NCBI GenBank assembly: GCA_009837355.1
Contig: VXTR01000064.1
Span: 34,737 to 98,736, forward strand
Length of the DNA: 64,000 nucleotides
Origin: Chloroflexota bacterium
GTDB taxonomy: Bacteria; Chloroflexota; Dehalococcoidia; Lucifugimonadales; UBA3495
Direction: 5' to 3'
Below are positions 9,419 through 57,496 of the stretch, piece by piece; the stretch's first letter is position 1; the number at the start of each line of letters is the position of its first letter. The notes under the pieces were generated by a model. The model did not search any database and was not told the DNA's origin. It saw only the letters and a program-made list of their open reading frames with translations. A program made the position numbers and the translations under genes.

Positions 9419-10735
9419 TCAAGAAGGGTACTTGCCCAGCATCAGCCAGCCGCCGCTGCTGGGCGTGGTAAAGGCGCAGAGGGCGGTTTCGGCCCGCACG
9501 GTTACCTGGCGGTCGCCAGCCGTGCCGCGGAGTTGCTCGATGCTGTCGGTGTACATGGCGGTGCGGGTGCGACCGTTGCCCAAGTTGCCGCCGCTGGAAC
9601 TGAATGGGTGGGGACCCTTGACGCTGATGTCGCCGGCGTAGAAGGGCAAGGCTTCGCCCCGCTTGACCCCGTGCCACTGGAAACCCTCCAGGAAGAACTG
9701 GGTCATTATGGAGTAGCCGTCGTAGGGGTTGAAGATGTCCACGTCGGCGGGGCCCAGCCCGGCGCCTTCGTACATACGGGCGGCCTGCTGGTCGGTCCAC
9801 ATCTCCACTTCGTCCAGGTCGGGCTGGGTGGTTCGGAACCGGAAGTTGTGCTGGGAATGGTTGAGGACGTACACCGGCTGGGACTTCAGATCCTGGGCCC
9901 TTTCAGCGGTGGTGAACAGGTAGGCGGCCGAGGCGTTGACGGGACGGTCGCAGTCCCATATGCGTAGCGGCCTTAGAATGTGGCGCGAGCCCCTGTAGTC
10001 TTCCTCCGAAATGGGCTGAACGTTGTGAGTGGCGTTATACCCCCACGGTGTGAGCATCCCATTCTTGTGCTGGTTAGTGACGAAGTGGAACAGGTCGTCG
10101 TGTTCGCCGCCGTATTTCTGCAGGTACTGACGGTGGGGAAAGATGTTGATGAAGTCGTTGCCGCCGTGGTTGCCCCAGGGCACGGTCCATTGGCGCGCTC
10201 CACGGGCGTAGTCTTCGGCGTTCTCGCCGCCCCGGCGATAGCGGCCTTCCAGGTTGCCGGTGGGGTAAATGACCAGACAGGTGGAGCAGACGCCGTCGCC
10301 TACGGCCTGGGAGGCCATGCCCACCATCTCGCCGATGGTCGGCACCCCGGTGGGCGCGAATTTGACGTTATTGAAACCCATAGTGTTGATTAGCCACTGG
10401 GCGTTGATTAGGGTCAGGCCGTACTCCGAGTCATAGGGTGGGTCGAAGTAAGGCCGGGGCGCCCACTGGGAAGCGGTGCCCCCGCTGCCGCCAGCGATGT
10501 GGCTGTCGCAGCAGACTATGCCGTCCACCTGGTCGATGGTAACGCCGGCCTGTTCCATGGCCTTTTCGCAGGCCATGATGGTATAAGCACCCAGGGATTC
10601 ATCCAGCTTTGTCTCATCCCACCGCCGATCCACCGGCGAATGGCCGTAGCCGACGACGGCCACCTTGCCCCGGTGTTCCCACACGCCCAAGCCGTCGCGG
10701 TCTCTCCGCCACTGGAAGTTGTTGCTGCTGGTCAT
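9419..10735 (-). CDS. thiolase family protein (lipid-transfer-type)
   Basis: GKVAVVGYGHSPVDRRWDETKLDESLGAYTIMACEKAMEQAGVTIDQVDGIVCCDSH...LGPADVDIFNPYDGYSIMTQFFLE. Confidence 0.8.
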   Translation of the reverse strand: MTSSNNFQWRRDRDGLGVWEHRGKVAVVGYGHSPVDRRWDETKLDESLGAYTIMACEKAMEQAGVTIDQVDGIVCCDSHIAGGSGGTASQWAPRPYFDPPYDSEYGLTLINAQWLINTMGFNNVKFAPTGVPTIGEMVGMASQAVGDGVCSTCLVIYPTGNLEGRYRRGGENAEDYARGARQWTVPWGNHGGNDFINIFPHRQYLQKYGGEHDDLFHFVTNQHKNGMLTPWGYNATHNVQPISEEDYRGSRHILRPLRIWDCDRPVNASAAYLFTTAERAQDLKSQPVYVLNHSQHNFRFRTTQPDLDEVEMWTDQQAARMYEGAGLGPADVDIFNPYDGYSIMTQFFLEGFQWHGVKRGEALPFYAGDISVKGPHPFSSSGGNLGNGRTRTAMYTDSIEQLRGTAGDRQVTVRAETALCAFTTPSSGGWLMLGKYPS

Positions 10736-11566: not shown

Positions 11567-13327
11567 CTACGCCGCCGGCGCCGGTATGATGGGCAGGCGA
11601 ATCCGCGAAGGGCGCTGGCCGTCGTGGTAAATGGTCTGCATGGCGGGAAGGGAGCCAGTGGCCGACCACGGGTCGCCAGCGGTGTTGAAGTTACGGTCGA
11701 ACCGAGGAAAGTTGCTGCTACTGATTTCCAGGCGGATGCGATGCCCCGCCTTGAAGACATTGCTCGTAGCCACCAAGTCGATGACATACTCTTCCACTGC
11801 GCCGGGTGTAATCGGGCGCGCCTGGTCCGTACCTTGGCGGTAGCGGGCGCGGATGATGCCGTCGGTCAGGCTGCGCGCCGCGCCACAGGGTTCCACGTCC
11901 GCCAGCTTGGCCGTGAAGTCGGTGTCGGCGGCGCTGGTGGCGGCGTAGAGGGTTACCGTCAACGGCCCGGTAACCTCCACATCCGACGCCAGCGGCGGCG
12001 TGGTGTAGCACAGCACATCGCTACGAGCCTCGACCGCACTCTGGTCATACGCACCGCCCGGCACGAAAGACGGGCCACAGCACAGTGGGCCGCCTCGGGT
12101 CGGAACCGGGTCTCGGGGATCATACAGAAACACATCCGTGAACTCATCACCAGACGGTTCAGTGGACAGCGCGCCGTCGCCGTCAGCCGTGTTAGCCTTG
12201 CCGCCGCTGTGCAGGTAGTAGTCGGTATATTCGGCCCGGGCGAGCGGCCATTCCTGCTCCTCCCGCCAGTAATTTTCGCCCATCACGAAGATGCGGACGG
12301 GCGCGTCAGCGTCGGCCGCGTTCCGCTCGCCCTTGAGCCAGTAGTCATACCAACGCAGATGAATGCCGTCAGTGTCGATAGCCGGCCCGGCCGCGGCCAA
12401 ACCGAAGAAAAACTCGCCGGAAATTTCGCCAAAGGGCCCGTGATGCCATGGCCCGACAATCAGGCGCTGTCCGGCCCGTGCCGTAGCGTCCTCAGCCTGC
12501 GCGCGCATACCGACGAAGTTGCGCAGGGTGCCCAACAGAAAAATATCGTGCCAGCCGCCGATGTGCAGGGCCGGCGTAGTGATGTGCGGGTAATGGTCCT
12601 CGATGCGCCAACGCTTCCAGTAGTCATCGCTAATGGAGTGGCGAATCCAGTCGTAGAAATAGTCGGCCAGCGGTGGTTTCAGCTGGGGCAGATCGACTAT
12701 GGGTTGGTAGCGGAATGTGCATTCCAGCTCGTTGAAAGCTGCCAGCAACTCCTCACGTGTCCCCTCAGGCAGTTCGTGGCGGCTACTGATAGCGCCCAGG
12801 TTGGCCATGGTCAGCTGGCGCATCGCCCAGGACAGGGCAAATCCCCAGGCCAGCGCGCCGCCCTGGTAAGTCCAGCCCTCGTAATAGTCCGAGGCAGTGA
12901 TACCGGGAACGATGCAAGTCAGGTTAGGCGGGTTGGTAATCGCGCATAGCCATTGAGTTGCGCCGACGTAGGAACGGCCAAACATACCGACCTTGCCGGT
13001 GCTCCACGGTTGGGCGGCGCACCATTCCACGGTATCGTAGCCGTCGTTGGGTTCGTCCAGGAACGGGTAAAACTCGCCCTCTGAGGCGTAACGGCCTCGA
13101 GTGTCCTGTACGACAATTGCATAGCCGTGGGAAGCGGCGCGCATCACGTCCAGGCTGCCGGTCCGGTTCTGGGTCTTGTCATAAGGAGTCCGTTGGAGCA
13201 GAACGGGGAGCGGCTCCGACACGTCGGGGCGATACACATCGGCGTACAAGGTAACGCCGTCGCGCATCGCAACCGGCACGTTGAACTCGCTGCGGACGCT
13301 TGTGTATGGGCCAATCATATCCGGCAT
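11567..13327 (-). CDS. CocE/NonD family hydrolase
   Basis: MPDMIGPYTSVRSEFNVPVAMRDGVTLYADVYRPDVSEPLPVLLQRTPYDKTQ...DTRGRYASEGEFYPF...GMFGRSYVGATQWLCA. Confidence 0.88.
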   Translation of the reverse strand: MPDMIGPYTSVRSEFNVPVAMRDGVTLYADVYRPDVSEPLPVLLQRTPYDKTQNRTGSLDVMRAASHGYAIVVQDTRGRYASEGEFYPFLDEPNDGYDTVEWCAAQPWSTGKVGMFGRSYVGATQWLCAITNPPNLTCIVPGITASDYYEGWTYQGGALAWGFALSWAMRQLTMANLGAISSRHELPEGTREELLAAFNELECTFRYQPIVDLPQLKPPLADYFYDWIRHSISDDYWKRWRIEDHYPHITTPALHIGGWHDIFLLGTLRNFVGMRAQAEDATARAGQRLIVGPWHHGPFGEISGEFFFGLAAAGPAIDTDGIHLRWYDYWLKGERNAADADAPVRIFVMGENYWREEQEWPLARAEYTDYYLHSGGKANTADGDGALSTEPSGDEFTDVFLYDPRDPVPTRGGPLCCGPSFVPGGAYDQSAVEARSDVLCYTTPPLASDVEVTGPLTVTLYAATSAADTDFTAKLADVEPCGAARSLTDGIIRARYRQGTDQARPITPGAVEEYVIDLVATSNVFKAGHRIRLEISSSNFPRFDRNFNTAGDPWSATGSLPAMQTIYHDGQRPSRIRLPIIPAPAA

Positions 13328-13337
13328 AATAACCTCC

Positions 13338-14279
13338 CTACGCCAGCAGAAACTCCAACACCGCCTTTTGAGCGTGAAGCCGGTTGTGGGCCTGCTGATA
13401 CGCCACCGATTGCGGGTGTTCCAGCATTCCCGGGGGCACTTCCTCGCCATAGTGAGCGGGCATATCGTGCATAAAGCAGGCTCCCTGCGCGGCCATTTCC
13501 ATCAAAGCGTAATCTACTGTGTAGCCCCGGAACGCGGCCAGCCGCTGCTCCGTTTCCGCTTCATCGCCCATGCTGGTCCAAACGTCAGTGTACACCACGT
13601 TGGCGTCAATCACGGCGTCCTCGGGCCGTACCAAAGGGTGGACGGTGGGACGGGGGCCGTCATTGGCGCGGACGCCCCGGGCGCTGGCGGCTCCAAATAC
13701 CGACTCTTCCAGCTGGTAGCCATGAGGAGCGGCGATAGCGAAGTTCATGCCGACGGCCGGCGCGCCCAGGCAAAGGCTGCGCGCCACGTTGTTCCCATCT
13801 CCGATGTAAGCCAGGTTCAGGCCGTCAGTGTGTCCGTGTGTCTCGGTTATGGTAAGCAGGTCGGCCATGGTCTGGCAGGGATGTTCCACGTCCGACAGGG
13901 CGTTGATGACCGGTACCGAGCCGTATTCCGCCAATTCCACCAGCGAGTCATGGGAATTGACACGGGCAATTACGGCGTCCACGTAGCCGCTGAGCACGCG
14001 CGCAACGTCGGAAACCGGCTCCCGCTTGCCCAGGCCGACCTCTTCCGGCGACATATACAAGCTGAACCCGCCCAGCTCTGCAATGCCAATCTGAAAGCTC
14101 ACTCGGGTGCGCAGTGACGGCTTTTCAAAGAGCAGGGCAACTCGCTTGCCGGCCAGAGGTTGAACTCCGCCTGGGGCTGCCGCTTTCAGCTCAATAGCCC
14201 GGTTTATCAACTGGCGTGTTTCTTCGGCGGAGATGTCGGTGATGGTAAGAAAATCGCGCTTGGCGGTCATAGCTCGCAT
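13338..14279 (-). CDS. argF: ornithine carbamoyltransferase
   Basis: FLTITDISAEETRQLINRAIELK...EKPSLRTRVSFQIGIAELGG...DVEHPCQTMADLLTI...HDMPAHYGEEV. Confidence 0.93.
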   Translation of the reverse strand: MRAMTAKRDFLTITDISAEETRQLINRAIELKAAAPGGVQPLAGKRVALLFEKPSLRTRVSFQIGIAELGGFSLYMSPEEVGLGKREPVSDVARVLSGYVDAVIARVNSHDSLVELAEYGSVPVINALSDVEHPCQTMADLLTITETHGHTDGLNLAYIGDGNNVARSLCLGAPAVGMNFAIAAPHGYQLEESVFGAASARGVRANDGPRPTVHPLVRPEDAVIDANVVYTDVWTSMGDEAETEQRLAAFRGYTVDYALMEMAAQGACFMHDMPAHYGEEVPPGMLEHPQSVAYQQAHNRLHAQKAVLEFLLA

Positions 14280-14317
14280 CCTGAACCGGGGTAAAGTACC
14301 GGCCTACTCACGCAAAA

Positions 14318-14347
14318 CAGGGGGCAAGTCTCGCAACCTGCCCCCTG
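14318..14347 (-). terminator. rho-independent-like terminator downstream of the NHL gene
   Basis: Reverse complement CAGGGGGCAGGTTGCGAGACTTGCCCCCTG followed by TTTTGC, located between 14372 (end of NHL CDS) and argF start. Confidence 0.55.
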
Positions 14348-14371
14348 CGGTTTTCAGGACTTTCCGGACAT

Positions 14372-15400
14372 TTACAGATTGAACTGCGGGTCCAGATAGG
14401 CGTCGTCCTTGTCATAAATCTGGAGGCGGGAGCGCAGGGTGTCACACACTACCAGGCGGTTGTTGGCCCGGTCGAAGGTGCAGCCCATGGGCATTCGGAA
14501 GGTTCGCTGCTGCTGCTCCAAGTCGGGAACTCGGCGGCGCGCCTTCACCATGTCAGGATTCGCGTCCAGGGACAGGTTGCCCCAGTCGGACACCTCTACC
14601 GCGTCACCAGTCAGATAGGCGATGGGGCGGGTTTCCGCGTCGTAGATGACGATGCGCTCGTTCATCCAGTCAGCCACGTAAACGTCGCCGTCGTTGTCAA
14701 TGGTGACGTCCAGCGGATGGCTCAGCTCACCAGAGCCGGAGCCTTGACTGCCAAAAGTGGCCAGATGCGTTCCGCCAGCAGTGTACTTCTGTACCCGGTG
14801 GTTCCCCCAGTCGGCCACATAGAGGTCGCCGGAGGGGTCTATGGTGATGCCAGAGGGCATTTCCAGGTCGGCCGGGCCGCTGCCCTTGGTGCCGAATCCA
14901 CCGAGGTAGTCGCCGTCGGGGCTGAACTTCTGTACGCGGCTGGTGCGCGAGGATATCACCCAGAGGTTGCCGTCAGCGTCAATTTCCAGGCCGGCAGCGC
15001 CGTTCAGCTGGCCTTCACCGTCGCCGGTTTCGCCCCACTGCTTCTGCAGGTTGCCATCAGCGTCAAAGACGGAAATCTGATTCTTCCACTCATCCGACGC
15101 ATAGACGTTGCCGTCAGCGTCGGTGGTGATTCCGGTGAGCCACTGGAACAGGCTGCCGGAGCCGGCCTGATAGGCGATGCCTTCCCGGCCGAATTCGCCG
15201 ATGTATTCCTGGTCCACCGTGCACTTGGTGATGCGGGCACTGGGATTCTGTTCGCCGGAGCGGTTGGCTACGTAGAGCGTCCCGTCGGGACGGGCAGCTA
15301 CGGCAACCGGCTGGCTGAACCCCATTCCCACCTGAGCGTTCCGGCCAATGTTGTGGCTGTAGAGCCACGCGCGGCCTCCCGCTACGGTGTTCATAGGCAT
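14372..15400 (-). CDS. NHL-repeat beta-propeller protein
   Basis: Repeated blades: GDLYVADWGNHRVQKYTAGGTHLATFGSQGSGSGELSHPLDVTIDNDGDVYVADWMNERIVIYD. Confidence 0.88.
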   Translation of the reverse strand: MPMNTVAGGRAWLYSHNIGRNAQVGMGFSQPVAVAARPDGTLYVANRSGEQNPSARITKCTVDQEYIGEFGREGIAYQAGSGSLFQWLTGITTDADGNVYASDEWKNQISVFDADGNLQKQWGETGDGEGQLNGAAGLEIDADGNLWVISSRTSRVQKFSPDGDYLGGFGTKGSGPADLEMPSGITIDPSGDLYVADWGNHRVQKYTAGGTHLATFGSQGSGSGELSHPLDVTIDNDGDVYVADWMNERIVIYDAETRPIAYLTGDAVEVSDWGNLSLDANPDMVKARRRVPDLEQQQRTFRMPMGCTFDRANNRLVVCDTLRSRLQIYDKDDAYLDPQFNL

Positions 15401-43604: not shown

Positions 43605-46600
43605 ATGACTACTGAACGGTATAACGACGCTTCGCAATCAACTCCCGCCGCGGCGGGAGTTTCCCATCGGTATGGAAGCCACCTGGGGGAGCCGATTGCC
43701 GTCATCGGCATGGCGTGCCGATTCCCCGGGGCGAACGATGTTCGAGATTTCTGGCGTCTGCTGGAAGCGGGGGAACACGCGATAACCGAGGGCGAACCCG
43801 GCTCCGGCATCGGGCGCGTAGGTGAACTCTTCCGAGGGACGACGGTTCAAAGCGAAGCCTGCCGCTTCGCCGCGTTCATTGATGACGTTGACCGGTTTGA
43901 CGCCGAGTTCTTCCGGATTTCGCCGGTGGAGGCGCAATTCCTAGACCCGCAGCAGCGAATAATGCTGGAAACCAGCTGGCAGGCGCTGGAGGATGCCGGT
44001 ATTGACCCGGAAGGGTTGCGAGGCAGCCGAACCGGCGTCTATGGAGGAATCAGCAATAACGAGTACCGTGGCATGATACTCGAATCCAGCGACACCGCCG
44101 ACGCTGCGCCCAGCCTTTACACCGTCAGCGGTACTTCCTACAACACCGCCATTGGACGAGTGGCTTTCGCGATGGGCCTGCAGGGGCCGGCCATTGCACT
44201 GGACACCGCGTGTTCGTCGTCGCTGGTGGCAGTGCACCAGGCAGTAACCGGGCTGCAGTTGGGAGAAGCGGATCTTGCTCTTGCGGGTGGGGTACATACG
44301 ATCCTGTCCGGGCGGTTGCTGGAACTCCGCGCCAACGCCGGAATGCTGGCGCCAGATGGCCGGTGCAAGACTTTCGACGCTTCTGCAAACGGTTATGTCA
44401 GGGGCGAAGGGTGCGGGATCCTGGTTCTGAAACGGCTGAGCGAGGCGGAAGCGGACGGGGACCGAATCTGGGGCATCATACGCGGGACTGCAATAAATCA
44501 GGACGGCGCCAGTAACGGACTGACCGTCCCCAACCAGGAGGCCCAAGAGCTCGTAATCCAAGACGCCCTGAGTCGGGCCGGCGTCTCACCATCGCAAGTG
44601 GACTATGTTGAAGCCCATGGTACGGGAACACCCGTAGGAGACCCGATTGAATTGGAGGCCATGGGGGCGGTTTACGGCATGGGGCGCGATGCGGAGCGCC
44701 CGCTGCTGGTCGGATCGGTGAAAACGAATTTCGGCCATCTGGAATCAGCGGCTGGCGTTGCCGGTGTGATGAAAGTGCTGCTGGCGATGAATCGAGGCGT
44801 GATTCCAAAGCATCTCAATTTCAGTACGCCTACTCCGGCGGTTGATTGGGAAAGGCTGCCGTTGTCCGTAACCGCGGTAGCCACTGACTGGCCGGCGGTC
44901 TCCGGCCGAGCTCCGCTCGCCGGCGTAAGCGGTTTTGGGTGGTCCGGCACCAACGCCCACGTGGTAGTTGAGGGCTACCGACCGGCCAATGCGGAAGGCG
45001 CAAGCAATGGGCTCAGCAGGGAGTGGCCGCCGGCCGGTTCCAAGCAACGTATTGATGTTTCGCCAGTGGCAACCGGCGAATCGTCGGATGCGGAGGCAGT
45101 GAGTCCACGCACAACGCGGATACTGCCGTTGTCGGGAAGGACGGACGCCGTTGTTGGTGAACTGGCGACACGATACCTCGACTGGCTGGACGTACACTCT
45201 GCAGAGCTGGCCTCCGCAGATTCCGGCAGCGGTTCTCTGCTGTCGGACATGGTGTGGACGGCCGGAGTTGGGCGCAGTCATTTCCCCTGTCGTGTGGGCG
45301 TCACCTTCCGGGATTCCGAATCGCTGCGCATTGGTCTGCAAAAGGTGAGTGAAGGGTCATCGGAACCTGCTGCCAGGCCGGCGAGGAGAGTGGCGTTCGT
45401 TTATACTGGCCAAGGCAGTCAGTGGGCGGGCATGGGCGAGACGCTGTACGAGACCGAGCCAGTCGTGCGATCGGTTCTGAACCGGTGCGAGGCAGTAATT
45501 CAAGAGGAAAGGGGAGTTTCTCTGCTTGATGTGATGTTTGGCAGAGAGGGGGCGGCTGGCGACCTTAATGACACGGCCTGGGCACAACCTGCGGTCTATG
45601 CCCTGGAGTGCGCGCTGACTGCGTTGTGGCGTAGTGTTGGTGTTGAGCCGAGTGTTGTCATCGGACACAGCCTCGGCGAGTTCGGTGCGGCTTATGCGGC
45701 CGGCGCGTTTGGCCTAGAAGAGGGTTTGCGGTTCGTTGCAAAGCGGGGCGTATTGCTGGCGTCGGTTCCAGAGTTGGGTTCGATGGCGGCGGTATTCGCG
45801 CCCAAGGACGAAGTAGCCGTGGCGGTTCAGGAGTATAGCTCCGAATCGAAAGGAACTGGCCTGTGTATCGGTGTGGACAATGGGATTCACCAGGTAATCA
45901 GCGGACCCACGGCGGACGTTCTGGCCCTTTCAGAGCGTTTTGAAGCTAAAGAAGTGCAGGTTCGGCCGCTGAGGACGAATCAGGCGTTTCACAGCGCCTT
46001 AGTAGAACCGGCGCTGGACCAATTGGAGCAGGCATACACGGACGTCACGGTTAAGCCGACGACGGTGGCTTTGGTAAGCAACGTGACGGGCAGCCGCATT
46101 GGAACAGGCGGCATCCTGGACGGCCAGTACTGGCGACGCCACGCGCGGGAAGCGGTGCAGTTCCGAAGCGGTATGGAAGTCCTAGCAGAGATGGGCGTCG
46201 ATCTGGTGATAGAGGTGGGACCGAACGCTGTCCTCGGTCCGCTGGTATCCCTCGCCTGGCCCGGAGTATCGGACGGCAACGAAGCGCCTCCCGTTCTGGC
46301 GAGCTTGCTACGCCCACTCTCCGGCATTGTCTCCGCGGACTTCCCTGACGGGTTCCTGGATGCAGTGGCCGGAGCGTATCGGGCCGGATTGGAAATCTCC
46401 TGGGATGGCCTTTTCGCGGGAGAAGATCGGCGCAGAATCGAACTACCCGGCTACCCCTTCCAGCGCCGACGCCATTGGGTCGATGCGCCACGGCGGGCGC
46501 GGGCTAGCTCCGACCATCCCCTTTTGGGAACCAGGCATGAATCGCCTCGCGGTGAGGTCCTGTTTGAAACGGAGATGGATGCATCTGAGCCGGCTTGGCT

Positions 46601-49600
46601 GAACGACCACCGGGTTTTTGGGCGTGTGATCATGCCGGGGGCGCTGTATGGCGCGATGGCCGCCGCCACATCCCTGGCCGAGGGCGCACCGGCGGTAGAG
46701 GTGGGCGACCTGCAACTGCACAGCCCGATGATATTCGCAGCGGATGATGCGGAGAACGGTACCGCTGAAAGAGCACGCCGAGTGCAGGCGGTACTTTGTC
46801 CGCCGGAGAGCGGCGGTGCCAGGCAAGTTGAGATATATAGCAAAGGCGAAGGGGAAGAGGGCTGGACGCTGCACGCGGAGTGCAAAACTTCGCCGGGCGT
46901 CAGGATGGGCGACGCCGGCCGCATCGACCTGGACGGCTTGAAATCTCGCCTGTCGGCAGCCGACGTGTCGGCGTTTTATCGGGCCAGGGCAGAGACCAGC
47001 ATTGACCTAGGCGCGGCATTTCGGACTCTCAGTGCCCTTTGGGCCGGCAATGGTGAGGCGGTCGGCGAGGTGGCGCTCCCGGAAGGTATCGAAAGGAATG
47101 CGATTGACCTGCATCCAATCCTGTTGGACGGGTGTTTTCAGGCGCTGTCTGCGGCGCGCCAGTCCGCGGGAAGCCAGGACGGAACAACGTATCTGCCGTT
47201 CGGCTGGGAACGATTGTGGTTCACCAGGCAACTGCCGGAGCGCCTGATCTGCCACGCGCAAATCAGGGAGAGCGAGCGTGATTCGGCTTCCGACGGCGGG
47301 TTTGCCGAAGTGCCGGAGGTGCTGAGCGGCGACCTGCGGTTCTACACACTGGATGGTGTTGAGATTGGCGGTCTGGACGGCTACACCGTGAAACGGGCCA
47401 CCCGAGCGTCGTTGCTTTCAGCAACGGAAGGGCTGCAAGACCTGCTCTACGAGATTATATGGCGGGATCGACCGTTGGCGCAGGGTATGCCGCCGGCGGA
47501 TTTCCTGACCGAGCCATGGGCTGTGGTCTCCTCTTCACCGACCTTCGCGCAATATCTGGTGAATGAAGGGGTTGGAGCCGATGCCCGTACTGATTTGCTT
47601 GATGACCTGGAGCGGCTGTCCTGGGCCTACGCTCTTGCCGCGTTGGAAAAGCTGGGATGGCAGCGCGTTGTCGGCGAGCACGTGGAACCTGAAGACCTAC
47701 GGCAAAGGCTGAACGTGCTGGATGAGCACAAGCGTCTGTTCCACCGTTTGTTTGAGATGCAGGCAAGGGGCGGCATGGTGGAAGAGCAGGGCGAGAGGTT
47801 TGTGGTGAGAGTCGGGAAAAATGACCCGATGCCGGACGAAATGGTAGGCGATATTGAAGAGTTTGCCGACCGAATCAGCGAGCGATACCCACATGGTTCA
47901 ACTGAGATTGGGCTGTTCCGGCGATGCGCCGGTGCGTTGGCGGACACTCTGACTGGGCAAGCCGATCCGCTAACCTTGCTGTTCAGCAGCGGGGAGCCAA
48001 CGGCCGCCGACTTGTATATGAAGGCTCCAGTAGCCCGTTCGGCCAACCGGATGCTGGGGGACGCCATCGCGGCCCTGCTCACCGAATTGCCGGAGGGACG
48101 CAAGCTGCGCATCCTGGAGGTTGGCGCCGGCACCGGGTCGGCAACGGCTGCCGTCCTACCAGAATTGCCCGACGGACGGTTTGACTATGTCTACACAGAC
48201 ATATCCGCCGGCTTCTTTGCAGAAGCTGAATCCCGTTTCGGAGGCAGCGAGGCATCTATCGAATACCGAGTTCTGGACATCGAGAGGAGTCCCATTGAGC
48301 AGGGGTATGACGCTCATGGCTATGACCTGGTAATTGCCTCGAACGTGCTGCACGCCACCATGTACCTTCACGAAACCTTGGCTCACTGTCGCGAGCTTCT
48401 CGCGCCATCGGGCCAGCTGCTCGCCCTGGAAAACCTTCGCGGCCAGGGTTGGCTTGACTTGACTTTCGGACAGCTGGACGGTTGGTGGCGGTTTGCCGAC
48501 GATTACCGTCCGCACCATGCGCTGGCCAGTCCTGCAGTTTGGCAGCGCGTGCTAACCGACGTGGGATTTGAGGAAGCGGCGGTGATGGGAGTGGACGAGT
48601 CCAACCGGGACAACCAGCCCGACCGAGGCGTGATAATGGCGCGCGGGCCGGCGGAAGTGACTGAACCGGCCGGGGTATGGGTTCTGGCCGGCGACAGATC
48701 CGGCGTAGCCCGGCAATTGGCTGCTGAATTGGCCGGGCACAATCAAACGGTGGTGGTGGCTGGGCCGGACGCCTCATCCGGCGGAATGTCTACGGAAATT
48801 AGCGACGCCATTATTGAGACGACTGTCGCGATGCAGGAGCGCGAGTCTTGGCGCTCTTTGCTGGAGGGCCTGCCAGCGGATGTTCAGCTGAGCGGCATTG
48901 TCCATCTGGCCGCACTGGACGGCCACGGCGAAGACGCCATCACTGCGGAGTTGGCGGATGACGCTAAGCACGCCGTAGCCAGCGCATTGGCCCTGGTGCA
49001 GGGCTTATCCGATGCTGATGCTATGCCGGAAAAGGGTGTGTGGTTCATCACTAGCGGCGGACAGGTGCTGGAGCATGAGCACTTCGGGCAGCTTTCCGGC
49101 GCGCTCCTGTGGGGCTTTGGCAAGGTAGTGTCGCAAGAAGCTCCCCACCTGCAACCGCGGATGATAGACCTGGACACCAACACTGCTGCGCCGGTGGCTG
49201 ACCTGGTCAACGAGCTTATGTATCCTGACGCGGAGACTCATCTGGCGTACCGCCTGGGACTGCGCCAGGCAGCGCGCCTGGTTCGGGCCGGCTCCGCCAC
49301 TGAGCGGGTGTCCATGCCGGAAGATTCGCGCTGGTTCCTGGAACCCGACTCAGGTGGTGCACTGGAAGGGCTGCAGGTACTGGACGCGCCCGAGCATCCG
49401 CTGGAGCCGAAGGAAGTGCGCGTGGCCGTGGAGGCTGCCGGCTTGAATTTCTGGGATGTGTTCCGCGCGATTAACATCATCGACGAAGGGCTTCTGGGCG
49501 GCGAGATGTGCGGTCGTGTGGTCGAAGTAGGCTCGGAAGTGTCCAGCGTTTCGGTGGGTGACCGGGTGGTGGCCCTGGCGTTTGGAACTTTCGGGTCGGA

Positions 49601-52600
49601 AGCAGTCATGCGGGAAGAAATGGTGGCCCTGGCGCCACCTAAAATATCCACTACAGCCTTGGCAACCATGCCCACCGTATTTGTCTCCGCTGCGCTGTCC
49701 TATGATTTCTCCGGGCTGAAACCGGGCGAACGGGTGTTAATTCACGCCGGCGCCGGCGGGGTGGGACTGGCAGCCATCCAAATGGCGCAGGCCGCTGGCG
49801 CGGAAGTGTTCGCCACGGCCAGCGCACCCAAGCAGGCGTATCTGCGATCGCTGGGCGTGAAGCACGTATTTGACAGCCGTCAGACGAAATTCGGACAGGA
49901 AATCCTGGACGTTACAGAAGGCCAAGGGGTTGACGTGGTGCTCAACAGCCTGACGGGAGAGGGCTTTATCGAGGCGAGCCTGTCATGTCTATCCCAGGGC
50001 GGACGGTTTGTTGAGTTGGCCAGGGAGGGCATTTACAGCGACGGCGAAATGGCCGCGGCCCGGCCGGACGTGGCGTATCACATCTTGAAACTGGATGTCC
50101 TGAAAGAGCACTACCCGGCAGAACCGGGGGACGCTCTCCGCAGGGTAATGACAGCCCTGGATGCGGGGGAATTGACTCCGCTCATTCACAGCAGATGGCC
50201 GATGGCCGAAGCGGGGCCGGCGATGAAGTTCATGCGCGCCGCCCGGCACATCGGGAAAATCGTTCTCACCACCTCCCCGTTGGAAACGGGACGTTTGCGC
50301 GGGGACAGGACTTACCTGGTAACCGGCGGCTTGGGCGGAATCGGGTGCACGCTGGCCGGCTGGCTAGCCGAGCGTGGCGCCGGCGCTATTGTGCTGAACG
50401 GACGCAGGGACCCGGACCCTGAGGCCGTAGCCGCCATTGCGGCGCTGCGCGAACAAGGGGCAACGGTCGAGGTTGAGTTGGCCGACGTAACTGACGCGGC
50501 AGCGGTGGACGCGATGCTGGAACGCATCGACGGAACGTTGCCGCCCCTGGCCGGCATAATTCACAGCGTGGGCGTCCTCTCGGACGCGGCGTTGACCAAT
50601 CAGAGCTGGCAGAGCTTTGAGAGCGTGCTCTGGCCCAAGGTGTTGGGAGCTTGGCACCTACATCGGGCCACCATGCACCGCGATCTTGATATGTTTGTAC
50701 TGTTCTCCAGCGTGGCCGGCGTGATGGGCAACGCAGGGCAGTCCAACCACGCGGCAGCCAATGCGTTCCTGGACCAACTTGCCGGCCATCGCCGGGCTAT
50801 TGGGCTCGCCGGTCAATCGGTGGCATGGGGCGCGTGGTCCGGACTCGGAGAAGCGGAGGAACAGCGGGAACGCATCGCGCGACAGTTGGAGGCCGGGGGC
50901 ACGGGCTGGATAACGCCACAGCAGGGTCTAAGAGCGCTGGAAACCCTCGTTCGTCAAGACGCGCCGACCGGCATGGTGGCGGCGGTCGACTGGCCGACCT
51001 TCGCCAATAATCGCGATGACATTCCACCGTTCCTGGAGGAACTGATTGTTACGTCCTCCGGGGATACGGACGCGGCTGCGGACACGTCGGACGATTTGCT
51101 CTCGCAGTTGCGAGGGCCGCAGCGAGCCGACGCGCAGAGCATTTTGGCTGCGTTCCTTCAGAAGGAATTGCAAGCAGTGATGCGGCTGCCCACACTGCCA
51201 TCAACGTCGGTGGGATTCTTCGACCTGGGCATGGATTCATTGATGGCTGTGGAGCTGAGAAACCGACTTAACCGCACCTTAGCCGGTGAGTACGTGGTCT
51301 CCAATACCGCCGTGTTCGACTATCCTGACATTACGGCACTGGCACGCCATCTGTCGGAAGAGCTGGGAGAGCTTGGAGGCAGTCTCTCAACGCCAATGTC
51401 GGAACCGGCGATCGAGGAGCGTCGTCAGGCAGCCATCAGCGATGACGATGGCATAGCCATCGTGGGCATGGCTTGCCGCTTCCCACGCTCGAATAACCTT
51501 GCCGAATACTGGCAGCTATTGGAATCGGGAACTGACGCGGTTACCGACGGGCGTCAGGAGGGCGGACCATGGGATGGAGCCGTAGGCGACCCAGCCGCCG
51601 AAGACCTGACCAGCAGGAGAGGCGCGTTTGTTGACGACATTGAGTGGTTCGACTCCCGTTTCTTCCGCATCGCGCCAATAGAGGCGCGCCTGATGGATCC
51701 GCGACAGCGCATGATGCTGGAAATCAGCTGGGAGGCGCTGGAAGATGCCGGCATCAATCCTGAGGGGCTGCGAGGAAGCCATACCGGCGTGTACGCTGGC
51801 GTCGGCGGCAGCGAGTACCGAGACCTAATTGAAGCCAGCGGCAGGGCAGACAGTTATTTGGGCACCACGGCAAGCGTAACCGCCGGACGGGTCGCTTTTG
51901 CTCTTGGCCTTGAAGGGCCGGCAATGCCCATCGACATGGCCTGCGCATCCTCACTGGCGGCGGTGCATCAGGCTGCGGCCGCCCTTCGAAAGGGTGAGGT
52001 CAACCTCGCCCTGGCTGGCGGCGTGCACGTGGTTCTATCCCGGTCGGTTTCCGGTTTCATGATGGAAGTGGGAATGCTGTCGCGCACAGGGCAATGCCGC
52101 CCCTTCGACGCATCCGCCGACGGCTACGTGCGCGGCGAAGGATGCGGAATCGTGGTTTTGAAGCGGTTGAGCGATGCCGAGGCAGATGGAGATCGAATCT
52201 GGGGAGTTATTAGAGGAAGCGCAGTCAACCAGAACGGGGCCAGCGCGGCGCTCACGGTACCCAACGGCCCGGCCCAAGAACGGGTGATGGAAGCCGCTCT
52301 CAATGAAGCGGGACTTGCCGGAACGGACGTAGATTACCTGGAAGCCCAGGCGGTCGGTTCCAAACTGGCGGACGCCATCGAGCTGCGCGCGGTCGGAGCC
52401 GTGTATGGCAGAGGGCGCGATGCGGACAATCCGCTCTTGACCGGCACAGTGAAGGCCAACATTGGGCATCTCGAGGCAGCGGCGGGAATTGCCGGCTTGA
52501 TAAAGACCGTATTGGCGATGAAGCAGGGGGTAATTCCCAGGCAGGTGAATTTTGATAACCCCAACCCGGAGATAGATTGGCACCAGTTGCCGGTGCAGGT

Positions 52601-53729
52601 TCCTTCTGAGTCCGTCGGCTGGCCGGTCCATCCCGACCGGCAACCACGCGCCGCAGTGAGCGCGTTTGGTATTTCCGGTACGAACGCTCACCTGGTGGTC
52701 GAAGGCTATGGAAGCCATTCCGAAGACTATGAAACCGTCTCCGGCATGGAATCGCCAGCCGGAGCTGCTCAGGACGTGCCTATCGCCCTTCCTGAGTCGG
52801 TAGCCGATGCGCTAGCTAGAGAGTCAGCGCCAGCAGAACGCAGCGTGCGTTTTCTGCCACTCTCCGGCAAGTCCGAGAGTGCGATTCGAGACTCGGCGAG
52901 CCGATACCTGTCTTGGATTGGCCAGCGCACCGCTGAGTCCGCCTATGATGCCACCGAATCCCAACTCCTTGCCGATATGGCGTGGACCGCCGCAGTTGGA
53001 CGGAGCCAGTTCGCCCATCGCGCCGGAGTGGTATTCACGGATGCCGATACGCTACGTGAGGGTTTGACGGCCCTCACCGGTAAGGAAGACAACTCCGATG
53101 GTTCGGAACCACAACCTGCAGCCGGGCCGGCGTTCCGATACAGTGGGGAAGGGAGTCAGTGGGTTGGCATGGGCGCAACGCTGTACGAAAGCGAGCCGGT
53201 GGCGCGCGCCGTTCTTGACCGGTGCGAAGCGGTGGTGATGGAAGACCGCGGCGAATCCCTGCTGGACGTGATGTTCGGGCGAGCCGAAACGGACGGTGGC
53301 CTGGACAATCCGCTGTGGGCACGACCTGCGATTTACGCCCTGGAATGTGCCCTTACCGCGCTGTGTTCAAGCTTAGCAATACGTCCCAACTACGCCCTCG
53401 GGGATGGCTGTGGGAATCTGGCCGCGGCCCAGGCCTTGGGAGCTTTCAGCCTGGAGGACGGCCTCCGGTTGGCTATGGGCGACGGCGCGCTGCCGGCGGA
53501 GCAAGCCAGTCTTGACGGCCTAGTTAAAACCATCGCTGATGCTGGGAGCGATACAGTGATTGAAATCGGCCCGGGCATGGTTGAATCAGACACCGGATTT
53601 TTGAATGAGGTCGCGAAGGCGTATGAAGCCGGCTTGACAGTCTCCTTTGAAGGGCTGTTCGCTGGCGAGCGGCGACGACGCATTTCACTTCCCAGCTATC
53701 CATTCCAGCGTCGGCGCCACTGGATATGA
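43605..53729 (+). CDS. type I polyketide synthase, KS-AT-DH-MT-psiKR-ER-KR-ACP-KS*-AT*
   Basis: KS1 (~43686-44979, Cys in DTACSSS at 44211), AT1 (GHSLGE Ser at 45669; AFHS-type motif), DH ([20 protein letters not shown]), MT ([12 protein letters not shown] ~48107), ER ([17 protein letters not shown] ~49738), KR ([12 protein letters not shown] ~50310), ACP ([10 protein letters not shown], Ser 51237-51239), then KS2 and truncated AT2. Confidence 0.97.
51450..53729 (+). other. degenerate KS-AT didomain at PKS C-terminus
   Basis: KS2 keeps Cys (DMACASS, 51942-51944) and NIGHLEAA, but EAHGTGT is EAQAVGS (52341-52361). AT2 GHSLGE is GDGCGN (53400-53417) and lacks the region corresponding to AT1's ...AFHS... 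core; protein stops at [13 protein letters not shown]. Confidence 0.85.
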
Positions 53730-53857: not shown

Positions 53858-54100
53858 ATGCCATCAACTGCAGATCGTCTCCAAAATCTCATCGCTGAAA
53901 ATTTGGAAGTCGACGGCAAGCCGGTAAGCACACCAGTGGATATGAACTCCAGCCTAACCGCCATCGGTGTGGCGTCTATGGACGTCGTCGCTTTTGCCCG
54001 GCTGATTCAGCAGGAGTTCAGCGTTCAACTCGCGCCCGAGCAATGCACGGAGTTGGCAACCCTCACGCAACTGGCTGAATTCATTGACGCCAATAGCTGA
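53858..54100 (+). CDS. free-standing acyl carrier protein
   Basis: 80 aa: MPSTADRLQNLIAENLEVDGKPVSTPVDMNSSLTAIGVASMDVVAFARLIQQEFSVQLAPEQCTELATLTQLAEFIDANS; Ser in phosphopantetheine-site position; AGGAGG upstream. Confidence 0.82.
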   Translation: MPSTADRLQNLIAENLEVDGKPVSTPVDMNSSLTAIGVASMDVVAFARLIQQEFSVQLAPEQCTELATLTQLAEFIDANS

Positions 54101-54127: not shown

Positions 54128-54859
54128 ATGCCAATGCCTGCTCCCGGTGGACTACCATGGTGGGGCATGATGCGAGAAATTGGCGCCATTCGAGTAGCGC
54201 ACGTTGACTTGACGCCTCACGCCGGCCGTGAGGCGTCAGCTTTGCTGTGGCTCGACGAAAGCGAGCAGGTCCAATGGCGCCGCTTTTTGTACCCAGGCCC
54301 GCGCCGACGATTTGCTTTGTGCCGCGCGGTGCTCCGCTCCCTCCTTTGCAGGCAACTGGGATGCGCCAACACTCAGCTCAACTTCGGCTACGGTTGCCAC
54401 GGCAAGCCTTTCGCAGTGATTGGAAATCACCCGGCGCCCATCAGTTTCAACGTAAGCCACAGCGATAGACGGGGATTGATTGCCTATGCACCCCAAGGAA
54501 AGCTGGGAGTGGACGTTGAGGAGTATGACCTCAGACGCGATATGGAACTGTTGATTGGCACGGTATTCGGCCCCAGCGAACGGGCTGATCTGGCCCAGCT
54601 CCATGGACACCATAAAGTCCGGCTGTTTTATAAGCTCTGGACAATTAAGGAGGCTCTAATCAAGGCTACGGGGGCGGGATTTTCGTGCGATGTGGCGAAG
54701 TTCGAAGTTCCACCAGCTCTGCGCCAGGGAACGACTGGAACTTTCACCTTTCCCCAGCATCCGACGAAAGAATGGAGAGTAGAATACCTGGGCAACGAAG
54801 CATTTGCCGGCTCCATCGCATACGAAGCGGGTAGCGATGCCGGGGGTAATGATGGCTGA
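54128..54859 (+). CDS. Sfp-type 4'-phosphopantetheinyl transferase
   Basis: GKPFAVIGNHPAPISFNVSHSDRRGLIAYAPQGKLGVDVEEYD...FYKLWTIKEALIKATGAGF. Start could be internal. Confidence 0.92.
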   Translation: MPMPAPGGLPWWGMMREIGAIRVAHVDLTPHAGREASALLWLDESEQVQWRRFLYPGPRRRFALCRAVLRSLLCRQLGCANTQLNFGYGCHGKPFAVIGNHPAPISFNVSHSDRRGLIAYAPQGKLGVDVEEYDLRRDMELLIGTVFGPSERADLAQLHGHHKVRLFYKLWTIKEALIKATGAGFSCDVAKFEVPPALRQGTTGTFTFPQHPTKEWRVEYLGNEAFAGSIAYEAGSDAGGNDG

Positions 54860-55754
54860 TGAAATCATATGGACCATACCCAAGCCACTATCCACTTATG
54901 ACGTGGCGGTAGATGACGAAACCGTCATTACTCTGCGACAGCACGGGAACCCTTCGGGCCCGCGGCTTGTCCTCTGCCATGGCAACGGCCTAGCGATTGA
55001 CCTGTACTATCCCTTCTGGTCGCTCCTGGTAGAGGACTTTGAAATAATTGTCTATGACCTCCGCAATCACGGCTGGAACCCCGTGAGCTCTATGGGCAAT
55101 CATACCCTGCCGATACTGGTTCAGGACCATGACAAGGTTCTTGCAGCGATCGACACACGCTACGGAAATAAGCCCAAAGTCGGAGTGTTCCACTCTGTTT
55201 CCGCCCTTGTTACTCTGCTGTCGCCCAACAAGGGCGACGAGTTCGTGGCGCGGGTGCTGTTCGACCCGCCTTTGTGCAAGCCGGGACGCGGGTACGTGGA
55301 ATTTGAAGAGGCGGCAACGCGCCTGGCAACGATGGCTCGCCGTCGGACACCCCGATTCAAAACCAGGGAAGAACTGGCATCGGTTCTACCATACCTACCA
55401 CCATTCAATCATGCTGTGGCCGGGATCGGCGACCTCTATACACGGGCAATCCTTCGCGAAAGTGAAGATAAAGATGGGTACGAACTCCGGTGCCCTCGCG
55501 AGTATGAAGCCCAGATAATGGAGTACGCGAGCACCTTTGCGGTGCTAGTGGATTTCGAATCAGTGCTTTGCCCAACCAAAGTAATCGGAGCTGACCCGAC
55601 GTTGCCGTACTCCTACCTGCCCAGCCTGGACCTCAGCGACGTTATCACGGTGGGCTACGATTTTTTGCCCGACGCGACCCACTTCCTACAACTGGAGCAG
55701 CCCCAGGAATGTGTTGAGTTGTTACGGGAGTTTCTCGACCCTCTCATCGGCTAA
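54849..55754 (+). CDS. alpha/beta hydrolase (candidate off-loading esterase of the PKS locus)
   Basis: PRLVLCHGNGLAIDLYYPFWSLLVEDFEIIVYDLRNHG...VGVFHSVSALVTLLS...DATHFLQLEQPQECVELLREFL; overlaps PPTase stop. Confidence 0.85.
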   Translation: MMADEIIWTIPKPLSTYDVAVDDETVITLRQHGNPSGPRLVLCHGNGLAIDLYYPFWSLLVEDFEIIVYDLRNHGWNPVSSMGNHTLPILVQDHDKVLAAIDTRYGNKPKVGVFHSVSALVTLLSPNKGDEFVARVLFDPPLCKPGRGYVEFEEAATRLATMARRRTPRFKTREELASVLPYLPPFNHAVAGIGDLYTRAILRESEDKDGYELRCPREYEAQIMEYASTFAVLVDFESVLCPTKVIGADPTLPYSYLPSLDLSDVITVGYDFLPDATHFLQLEQPQECVELLREFLDPLIG

Positions 55755-57496
55755 CTTTCAACTCGTACCATTATGATGTCCATGCCGTGGTACTTCTGGT
55801 GCCGGACTGTCGAAGCGTAGTGCCTCAGCAGTCGGAAGGAAACTTCCCTTTCGTCCACTACCTGGGGTTCCTCTTCCAGGTATGAGAGACGGTCGCCAAG
55901 GTTCTCTTCCTCCAGGACGGAAATAAATTCCAGGTCCACGGCTCTGCCGTCGGGGCGGGCGGATACCATCAAGCGGGGCGGGTTGCCCTGAGACTCGGTT
56001 TCGGCAAATTCATTATCGGGTTGAAGCAAGCTGGAGATTGCCTCTTCACCCGCCGAGCGAAGGCGGTCGGTGGAGGCTTCGTTCCAGCCCATCCTGCCGG
56101 CGACGTCTTGCAGGAAAGTGTCAATTCTCGGAAGCTCGGAAAACTCCAGCCGGGTGGTCAGCCGTCTGGGACGGGACCGGCTCAACTCCATGAAAGCGGT
56201 CAAGCCAACGGCCATGAGACCTCCCATTGTGACTCCGTTACCAAGCAACAGGTCCCAAGGGGAAGGAATCAGACCTTCGAACACGTTTTGAAACTCCATC
56301 GCCGCTCCAGTTGCGAAGGACAAGCCGACGATAAAGGTTTTCGAGACGTCAATCCCGTCCTGCATGACGGACTGTATGCCCTGTACAAAGAAGATGCCGA
56401 TTGCAATCAGCAGAACGGCGCCCAGCACCGGACCGGGAATAAGCAGAAACAGGCTGGCAAGTTTTGGAGAAAGCGCCAGTGCCAGGAGAATCACCGCCAT
56501 AGCGTATCCAACGTAGCGGGATGCTACCCCGGTGAGGGTCACCACAGAGACTGTCATCGACGAAAAGAATGTTGGAGGAAGAATACCGATCAAGGCAGAT
56601 GCGAACATGCTGATACCGTTAGCATACAACGTGCCTTGCAGCATGCGGAAATCGGTAGCTCTGGGCTGTCGCCGGGAGGCTTGTTGAACGGCAACTGCGT
56701 CGCCAATTCCTTTGACAGCAAACACCAGCGCCACGATGGCGAACATTGGCGCCATAGCCCAGAACTCAGCCGGGGGCGTGAGGTCCAGCCCCGGGAACTC
56801 AAGGCCAGGAAACCCGACCCAGGACGCGGCGTACAGTGATTCCAACTCATAGAATCCAAAGGGAGCGGCAATGGCACAACCACAGCCAATGCCTATGACG
56901 AGCGACCATGCCCGCCATCGTCCGGGCGCGCGCATAGTCAGCAGGGTGGACACGACCAGCGTGGCCGCAACTACATACAAGCCCGCAGCCGGCGACGTTC
57001 CCTCCGGCGCCTCACCAATAACATCCAGAGTGACCGGCAAGATTGAGACGGAAATCAGCATGAGGACGGTGCCCGACACGGCCGGGGTTATAATCCGGCG
57101 CAATAGGGGCAACCAGGTAGGAACCGCCAAGTAACATACTGCCGAAACAAGCAGGAGGCTGACCAGCAAGGTCGGTCCGCCCGCTTCCAACGCCAGTATG
57201 GAAACCGCGATGAAAGTGGGGGAGATTACCGAAATAAAGGTATGACCGGCTCCGAATCGCCAGATTCGAGACGCCTGCAAGGCGGTAACCGCCGCCAGGA
57301 TTATCAGCGAGCCGAACATTGTCCAGGCGACGTAGCCCTCGCTCTGGCCACCAGCAACACCGACAATCACCACCACCATCACGGTGATGGGCAGCCCAAT
57401 CAGGGTTCCCTGAACGCCCACCAACAAGGCCAATAGTGGCGAACAGGGCTCGTTCGGTTCGTAGCGCAGATGGCTGCCAGGGCGATTCGATGCCAA
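55751..57496 (-). CDS. NCS2 (xanthine/uracil) permease-like protein with C-terminal RsbW/HATPase-like region
   Basis: ~12 hydrophobic segments in NCS2-like pattern; C-term LPRIDTFLQDVAGRMGWNEASTDRLRSAGEEAISSLL...LEFISVLEEENLGDRLSYLEEE...VSFRLLRHYASTVRHQKYHGMDIIMVRVES. Confidence 0.75.
   Translation of the reverse strand: MASNRPGSHLRYEPNEPCSPLLALLVGVQGTLIGLPITVMVVVIVGVAGGQSEGYVAWTMFGSLIILAAVTALQASRIWRFGAGHTFISVISPTFIAVSILALEAGGPTLLVSLLLVSAVCYLAVPTWLPLLRRIITPAVSGTVLMLISVSILPVTLDVIGEAPEGTSPAAGLYVVAATLVVSTLLTMRAPGRWRAWSLVIGIGCGCAIAAPFGFYELESLYAASWVGFPGLEFPGLDLTPPAEFWAMAPMFAIVALVFAVKGIGDAVAVQQASRRQPRATDFRMLQGTLYANGISMFASALIGILPPTFFSSMTVSVVTLTGVASRYVGYAMAVILLALALSPKLASLFLLIPGPVLGAVLLIAIGIFFVQGIQSVMQDGIDVSKTFIVGLSFATGAAMEFQNVFEGLIPSPWDLLLGNGVTMGGLMAVGLTAFMELSRSRPRRLTTRLEFSELPRIDTFLQDVAGRMGWNEASTDRLRSAGEEAISSLLQPDNEFAETESQGNPPRLMVSARPDGRAVDLEFISVLEEENLGDRLSYLEEEPQVVDEREVSFRLLRHYASTVRHQKYHGMDIIMVRVES

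Follow-up and report, generated by a model that had tools for sequence, protein, structure and literature searches.

We propose that the C-terminal KS of a Chloroflexota type I PKS (KS2), its KS-AT and post-AT linkers and a separately encoded acyl carrier protein (ACP) make up a split terminal module, a reading that we hold to be reasonably probable. The chain would pass from ACP1 to the KS2 cysteine, from there to the discrete ACP and on to a hydrolase, probably with a condensation in most relatives and by transfer only in the species of the window (the whole 64,000-nucleotide stretch of DNA that was analysed). The main module would be self-sufficient, fully reducing and C-methylating, and would build the acyl chain that KS2 takes over. 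The discrete ACP, itself activated by the adjacent 4'-phosphopantetheinyl transferase (PPTase), would then receive the chain, and the alpha/beta hydrolase next door would release it or process it in some other way. In most relatives, KS2 has every catalytic residue and may perform a final condensation, using an extender that is loaded in trans. The KS2 step in the window species is most likely transfer-only and KS0-like. Judged by its motifs, KS2 keeps the residues that hold an acyl chain on the cysteine, and those that load an extender are gone from AT2; the direction of transfer, the occurrence of condensation and the role of the hydrolase are what we infer. The features of the window that matter here are as follows.

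43605-53729, + strand: type I PKS of 3374 residues, KS1-AT1-DH-MT-ER-KR-ACP1-KS2-AT2* (ORF, Pfam)
43689-44969, + strand: KS1, intact, with DTACSSS, EAHGTGT and KTNFGH (Pfam, motif table)
45396-46300, + strand: AT1, intact, with GHSLGE and AFHS; end approximate (Pfam, motif table)
51156-51353, + strand: ACP1, with GMDSL (Pfam PF00550)
51447-52706 (approximate), + strand: KS2, Cys kept, HGTGT His changed to Gln, second His kept (motifs, alignment, Pfam)
52851-53066, + strand: KS-AT linker subdomain 3' of KS2, CurL-like, cis-AT type (Pfam PF22621/PF16197, alignment)
53133-53501, + strand: AT2 relic, without Ser and without AFHS (Pfam PF00698 positions 2-122 of 319, alignment)
53595-53726, + strand: post-AT linker, ending in LPSYPFx5W at 53688-53723 (alignment)
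53858-54100, + strand: discrete acyl carrier protein, 80 residues, with an AGGAGG ribosome site just 5' (Pfam, ORF)
54128-54859, + strand: Sfp-type PPTase (Pfam PF01648)
54852-55754, + strand: alpha/beta hydrolase; 8-base overlap with the PPTase gene (Pfam PF12697)
55751-57496, - strand: NCS2-type (xanthine/uracil) permease-like protein; adjoins the cassette in many relatives (Pfam PF00860, synteny)

The reading frame at 43605-53729 is uninterrupted over its 3374 residues. It stops one residue past LPSYPFx5W, at the post-AT linker where the preliminary description of this DNA had placed the end of the protein. KS2 of the window has the nucleophile motif DMACASS (Cys codon 51942-51944) and EAQAVGS in place of EAHGTGT (Gln codon CAG, 52347-52349), both as first described, and its second His lies in KANIGH (52467-52469). 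We counted residues across 63 KS2 sequences (62 genomes). All 63 have the nucleophile Cys, the second His, the Lys, the Asn and the Asp/Glu of GDxxE, and 61 have the HGTGT His; Gln occurs only in the window and in one other genome (G010). The KS-AT pair had been described as catalytically dead. That holds for AT2, which has no Ser in any relative, and fails for KS2, which has the full catalytic set in 61/63; likewise, the AT motif loss is family-wide and the KS2 His loss is confined to the window species and G010. Columns after the HGTGT His drift in KS2 (Gly 49/63, Thr 17/63, Gly 48/63, Thr 19/63). The same columns are nearly invariant in KS1 of two-KS proteins, and HGTGT is present in 19/19 KSs from other PKSs. 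Among KS1-conserved columns, 6/9 within the motif vary in KS2, compared with 12/119 elsewhere (Fisher p=2e-4). The KS2 tree places the loss of the His at two separate events, with no relaxed selection accompanying it. All 63 sequences share a retained Cys with KS0 domains, and only the window (EAQAVGS) and G010 share the loss of the His. Because the other 61 keep it, the two-KS family, judged by this residue, is not a KS0 family, and we rejected KS0 as a label for the whole. Such near-total conservation argues that pure transfer was not the ancestral role of KS2.

Two other readings turn on these residues. KS2 could be a normal elongating KS of a split last module throughout the family, the window included, with AT1 or a housekeeping malonyltransferase loading the discrete ACP and with the Gln variant partly active. 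The HGTGT His in 61/63 and the invariant Asp/Glu, Lys, Asn and second His fit elongation, as do the existence of a dedicated ACP and an AT loss that suits extender loading in trans. However, outside the His the HGTGT loop is a hot spot of divergence in KS2 and not in the other PKSs, the His has been lost twice without relaxation, and no AT gene was seen beside the cluster; we regard this reading as possible and rather doubtful. KS2 could instead be non-elongating across the family, as a KS0 clade that keeps the His for another reason. The degenerate loop of most KS2 sequences and the twice-tolerated loss of the His speak for this, but it is unlikely, as the His has stayed in 61 sequences and the Asp/Glu in 63 despite the drift of adjoining columns. 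In the split terminal module that we prefer, most relatives probably condense once still, given how strongly the HGTGT His, Asp and Glu are conserved, and transfer without elongation is likelier in the window species because its HGTGT His is Gln. The non-elongating hand-off first suggested for this tail is plausible in the window species, with His changed to Gln and the Cys kept, and probably does not extend to the whole family.

The genes 3' of the PKS encode, in order, the discrete ACP, the PPTase and the alpha/beta hydrolase, followed by the NCS2-like permease on the opposite strand. The discrete ACP was found in 27/27 two-KS genomes and 0/366 others of the class sample (393 genomes); several of the 366 carry KS-AT PKSs of other kinds. 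In the phylum sample it was found in 26/26 two-KS genomes and in 0/12 control genomes selected because they have a different type I PKS. The genomes are related, and these counts are not independent trials (not 62 independent cases). Single genera and families can include both genomes with the ACP and genomes without it. A fragmentary genome (G303), with module 1 only and no ACP, was left unscored. For the hydrolase, the counts were 35/36 versus 1/10, and 26/26 versus 0/12 in the second sample. The phosphopantetheine Ser of the discrete ACP is conserved in 28/28 relatives, and the PPTase catalytic residues and hydrolase Ser115 are also conserved in relatives. The three genes adjoin the PKS in many relatives and lie apart from it in about half, and the cassette holds together even where it is unlinked. 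This co-occurrence marks the discrete ACP as an obligate companion of the two-KS PKS and supports the proposal that the chain partner is a separate ACP; the discrete ACP is very probably the partner of the KS2-AT* tail. Co-occurrence carries no direction, and the flow might be reversed, with the discrete ACP bringing a starter that KS2 accepts and the main module receives. We think this improbable: KS2 follows ACP1 on the C-terminal side, as downstream domains usually do, and the hydrolase travels with the ACP, which is a better fit to release.

Several further observations concern the cassette and its surroundings. The gene for the NCS2-type permease-like protein accompanies the ACP-PPTase-hydrolase genes (55751-57496, - strand, in the window; L140 6742-10477), and in G266 all four genes form one unlinked operon-like run. 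The genome of the window also carries another copy of the discrete ACP, which stands alone and is about 57% identical (L139 5923-6183, G000 contig 25), about 4.7 kb from a second and more distant NCS2-like permease. In the closest relative (G002), the hydrolase is spread over two frames (L016 ~13919-14817) and is either broken or misread.

AT2 has GDGCGN (53400-53417) at the site of GHSLGE in AT1. Alignment to AT1 places gaps of 88, 41 and 33 columns in AT2, which lacks about 150 residues including AFHS, and the preliminary description was accurate on both points. Pfam matched both KS halves in the tail, and its AT match covers the first 122 of 319 positions. Neither the GHSxG Ser nor AFHS was found in AT2 of any relative's tail examined. 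The AT core is wholly absent in eight genomes, in which the KS, a KS-AT linker of about 95 residues and a post-AT linker of about 45 residues with its YPFx5W end all stay. These AT-excised members sit at four separate places on the KS2 tree, and AT2 was excised cleanly at least four times, apparently independently and at the same boundaries. Two genomes cut by contig ends (G714 and G651) were not counted, nor was G560, a candidate fifth excision that was rejected when its AT relic proved to carry a frameshift instead. The KS-AT linker after KS2 is kept in all complete relatives. The KS2-AT* tail had been suggested as a possible gate. Because its core is the least constrained part of the tail and has been lost outright in several lineages, we read AT2 as a dead relic on a conserved linker scaffold and not as part of an active gate, of which only the flanking linkers seem still to be needed.

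The KS-AT and post-AT linkers wrap round the KS in known structures (PMC11907408). A tail that serves only as a docking or dimerisation scaffold would suit the persistence of the linkers and the LPxYPFx5W end even where the AT is gone; it is very improbable against a Cys and an active-site set that are invariant in 63 sequences. The split terminal module, in which both the KS2 active site and its linkers would be used, also has to be set beside trans-AT PKSs. There, the LPTYPFx5W end of a KS and its flanking subdomain is an evolutionary or natural unit boundary (PMC11260071), and the KS2 tail resembles that unit in having a KS, a linker and LPxYPFx5W with no working AT (the Ser in none of the tails, the AT excised in four lineages). 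It differs in its CurL-like linker, for which Pfam models match better than the RhiE-like ones, in an AT that is dead or excised, and in descent, since KS2 and KS1, both from one cis-AT protein, are sister domains. By descent, then, the two-KS family does not class as a trans-AT PKS, and given the sister KS1 and the CurL-like linker the likeness is convergent. The scan of the cluster (42-57 kb of the window) found no gene for a dedicated free-standing AT. The balance is about even on whether the family forms a natural series in which a cis-AT module turns AT-less and trans-AT-like, with the Ser gone in all members seen, the core eroding, repeated excision, and the KS, linkers and free ACP kept.

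We searched for KS2-AT* in relatives, in the family, in the class sample (393 genomes) and in the phylum sample (400 genomes). These searches turned up the two-KS layout in 62 genomes, which span at least two classes, together with weaker matches to control type I PKSs from the same phylum; a contig search with KS2-AT* gave only one distant Pseudomonas match. KS2-AT2 and KS1-AT1 are 54% identical over aligned columns. The KS1 sequences form one clade and the KS2 sequences another, and the pair is split from 19 other PKS KSs with 100/100 support. An origin of KS2 by import from another PKS was rejected on this grouping. The tree supports the intragenic duplication that had been suspected and indicates that it was a single, old event, before the family spread, and not a recent one. 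An AlphaFold model of the window's own two KS-AT regions had a pLDDT of 31, too low for any reading of the fold.

Variation within the family extends beyond the tail. A subclade represented by G331 and G137 (L082 2342-10609, L085 4604-13255) has a two-KS PKS in which Pfam finds neither methyltransferase nor enoylreductase; KS2-AT* is still kept, and the hydrolase and permease genes lie 5' of the PKS. The PKSs of G192 and G435 have the same lengths. G061 apparently has two different PKSs of the family, with separate KS2 types (L087, L093). The PKS of G054 carries a frameshift in its KR region (L021 ~9505-9745), which may be a real change or a sequencing error.

Over 13 pairs, dN/dS was 0.05-0.23 for KS2, close to that of KS1 (0.02-0.16), and 0.16-0.62 for the AT2 core; between the window and its sister G002, the values were 0.09 for KS2 and 0.24 for the AT2 core. 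KS2 is under purifying selection, in line with the earlier view that selection retains KS2-AT*, and the segment is not a pseudogene relaxed over its whole length. The window lineage, which lost the HGTGT His, shows no relaxation in KS2: its branch carries 10 amino-acid changes and that of its His-keeping sister 16, with 35 and 38 synonymous changes. Frameshifts 3' of the KS2 end, in the linker or AT relic, occur in 2 of about 60 relatives, after KS2 in G038 (L024 ~12083-12980) and within the relic of G560 (L171), and may be sequencing errors. Relaxed selection, frameshifts in relatives and an assembly error had been named beforehand as signs that the tail is simple decay or an artefact. KS2 itself shows none of the first two, and the two-KS tail is not an assembly error because 62 genomes from two or more classes share the layout. 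That the second module simply decayed or was misassembled has a negligible chance: AT2 is clearly decayed and the two frameshifts past KS2 would fit, but the shared layout, the KS2 dN/dS and the Cys in 63/63 rule it out for KS2. The claim that the tail is not merely decay thus holds for KS2, and decay is accepted for the AT2 core alone.

The closest functional parallels to the window KS2 are KS0 domains that hand a chain from one carrier to another. The chain accepted by the mupirocin MmpE KS0 goes on to a newly found ACP, and Cys-to-Ala mutation of this KS0 abolishes the pathway (PMC7619045); hangtaimycin KS3 is a springboard between two ACPs (PMC8456789). Like KS2 of the window, both keep the Cys, have lost the HGTGT His and are followed by a different ACP as the next carrier. 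KS2 differs from them in its cis-AT descent, its C-terminal position and the His kept in 61/63 relatives. In green-algal PKSs of clade 6, a last KS with altered HGTGT precedes a hydrolase-like domain, and release or transfer has been proposed (PMC4661987). Those PKSs are eukaryotic, with a shifted Cys and a fused hydrolase-like domain, whereas the KS2 partners are separate genes.

The core of the window PKS is a single fully reducing module with a C-methyltransferase (KS-AT-DH-MT-ER-KR-ACP by Pfam), like the one-module, methyl-branching and fully reducing core of SupA, the Sup (sponge symbiont ubiquitous) PKS. We liken the two by architecture and by the open papers only, and on that footing the window PKS appears to be of the Sup kind. 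Type I PKS clusters homologous to sponge-symbiont ones have been reported from sponge-associated SAR202 and Caldilineae genomes (PMC6306507), and SUP-like clusters from Chloroflexota MAGs and other phyla (PMC9426513). Gene content and these two papers suggest that the window comes from a sponge-associated, SAR202-like member of the Chloroflexota. The open papers on Sup-like clusters, to which our comparison was confined, make no mention of a KS-AT relic at the C-terminus, and we do not present the C-terminal KS as a first description.

The Chloroflexota PKS group concerned is probably the sponge-associated Sup type. If the proposed mechanism is right, the tail would explain how the chain is handed over in these widespread PKSs, a step left open by the catalogued single-module architecture, and the partner genes are named for testing. 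If the series from cis-AT to AT-less modules is real, it would offer a directly testable route to the origin of AT-less modules. It would also be an independent, graded case of AT loss in which precisely the KS-linker-LPxYPFx5W unit survives, the one that serves as a boundary in PKS engineering.
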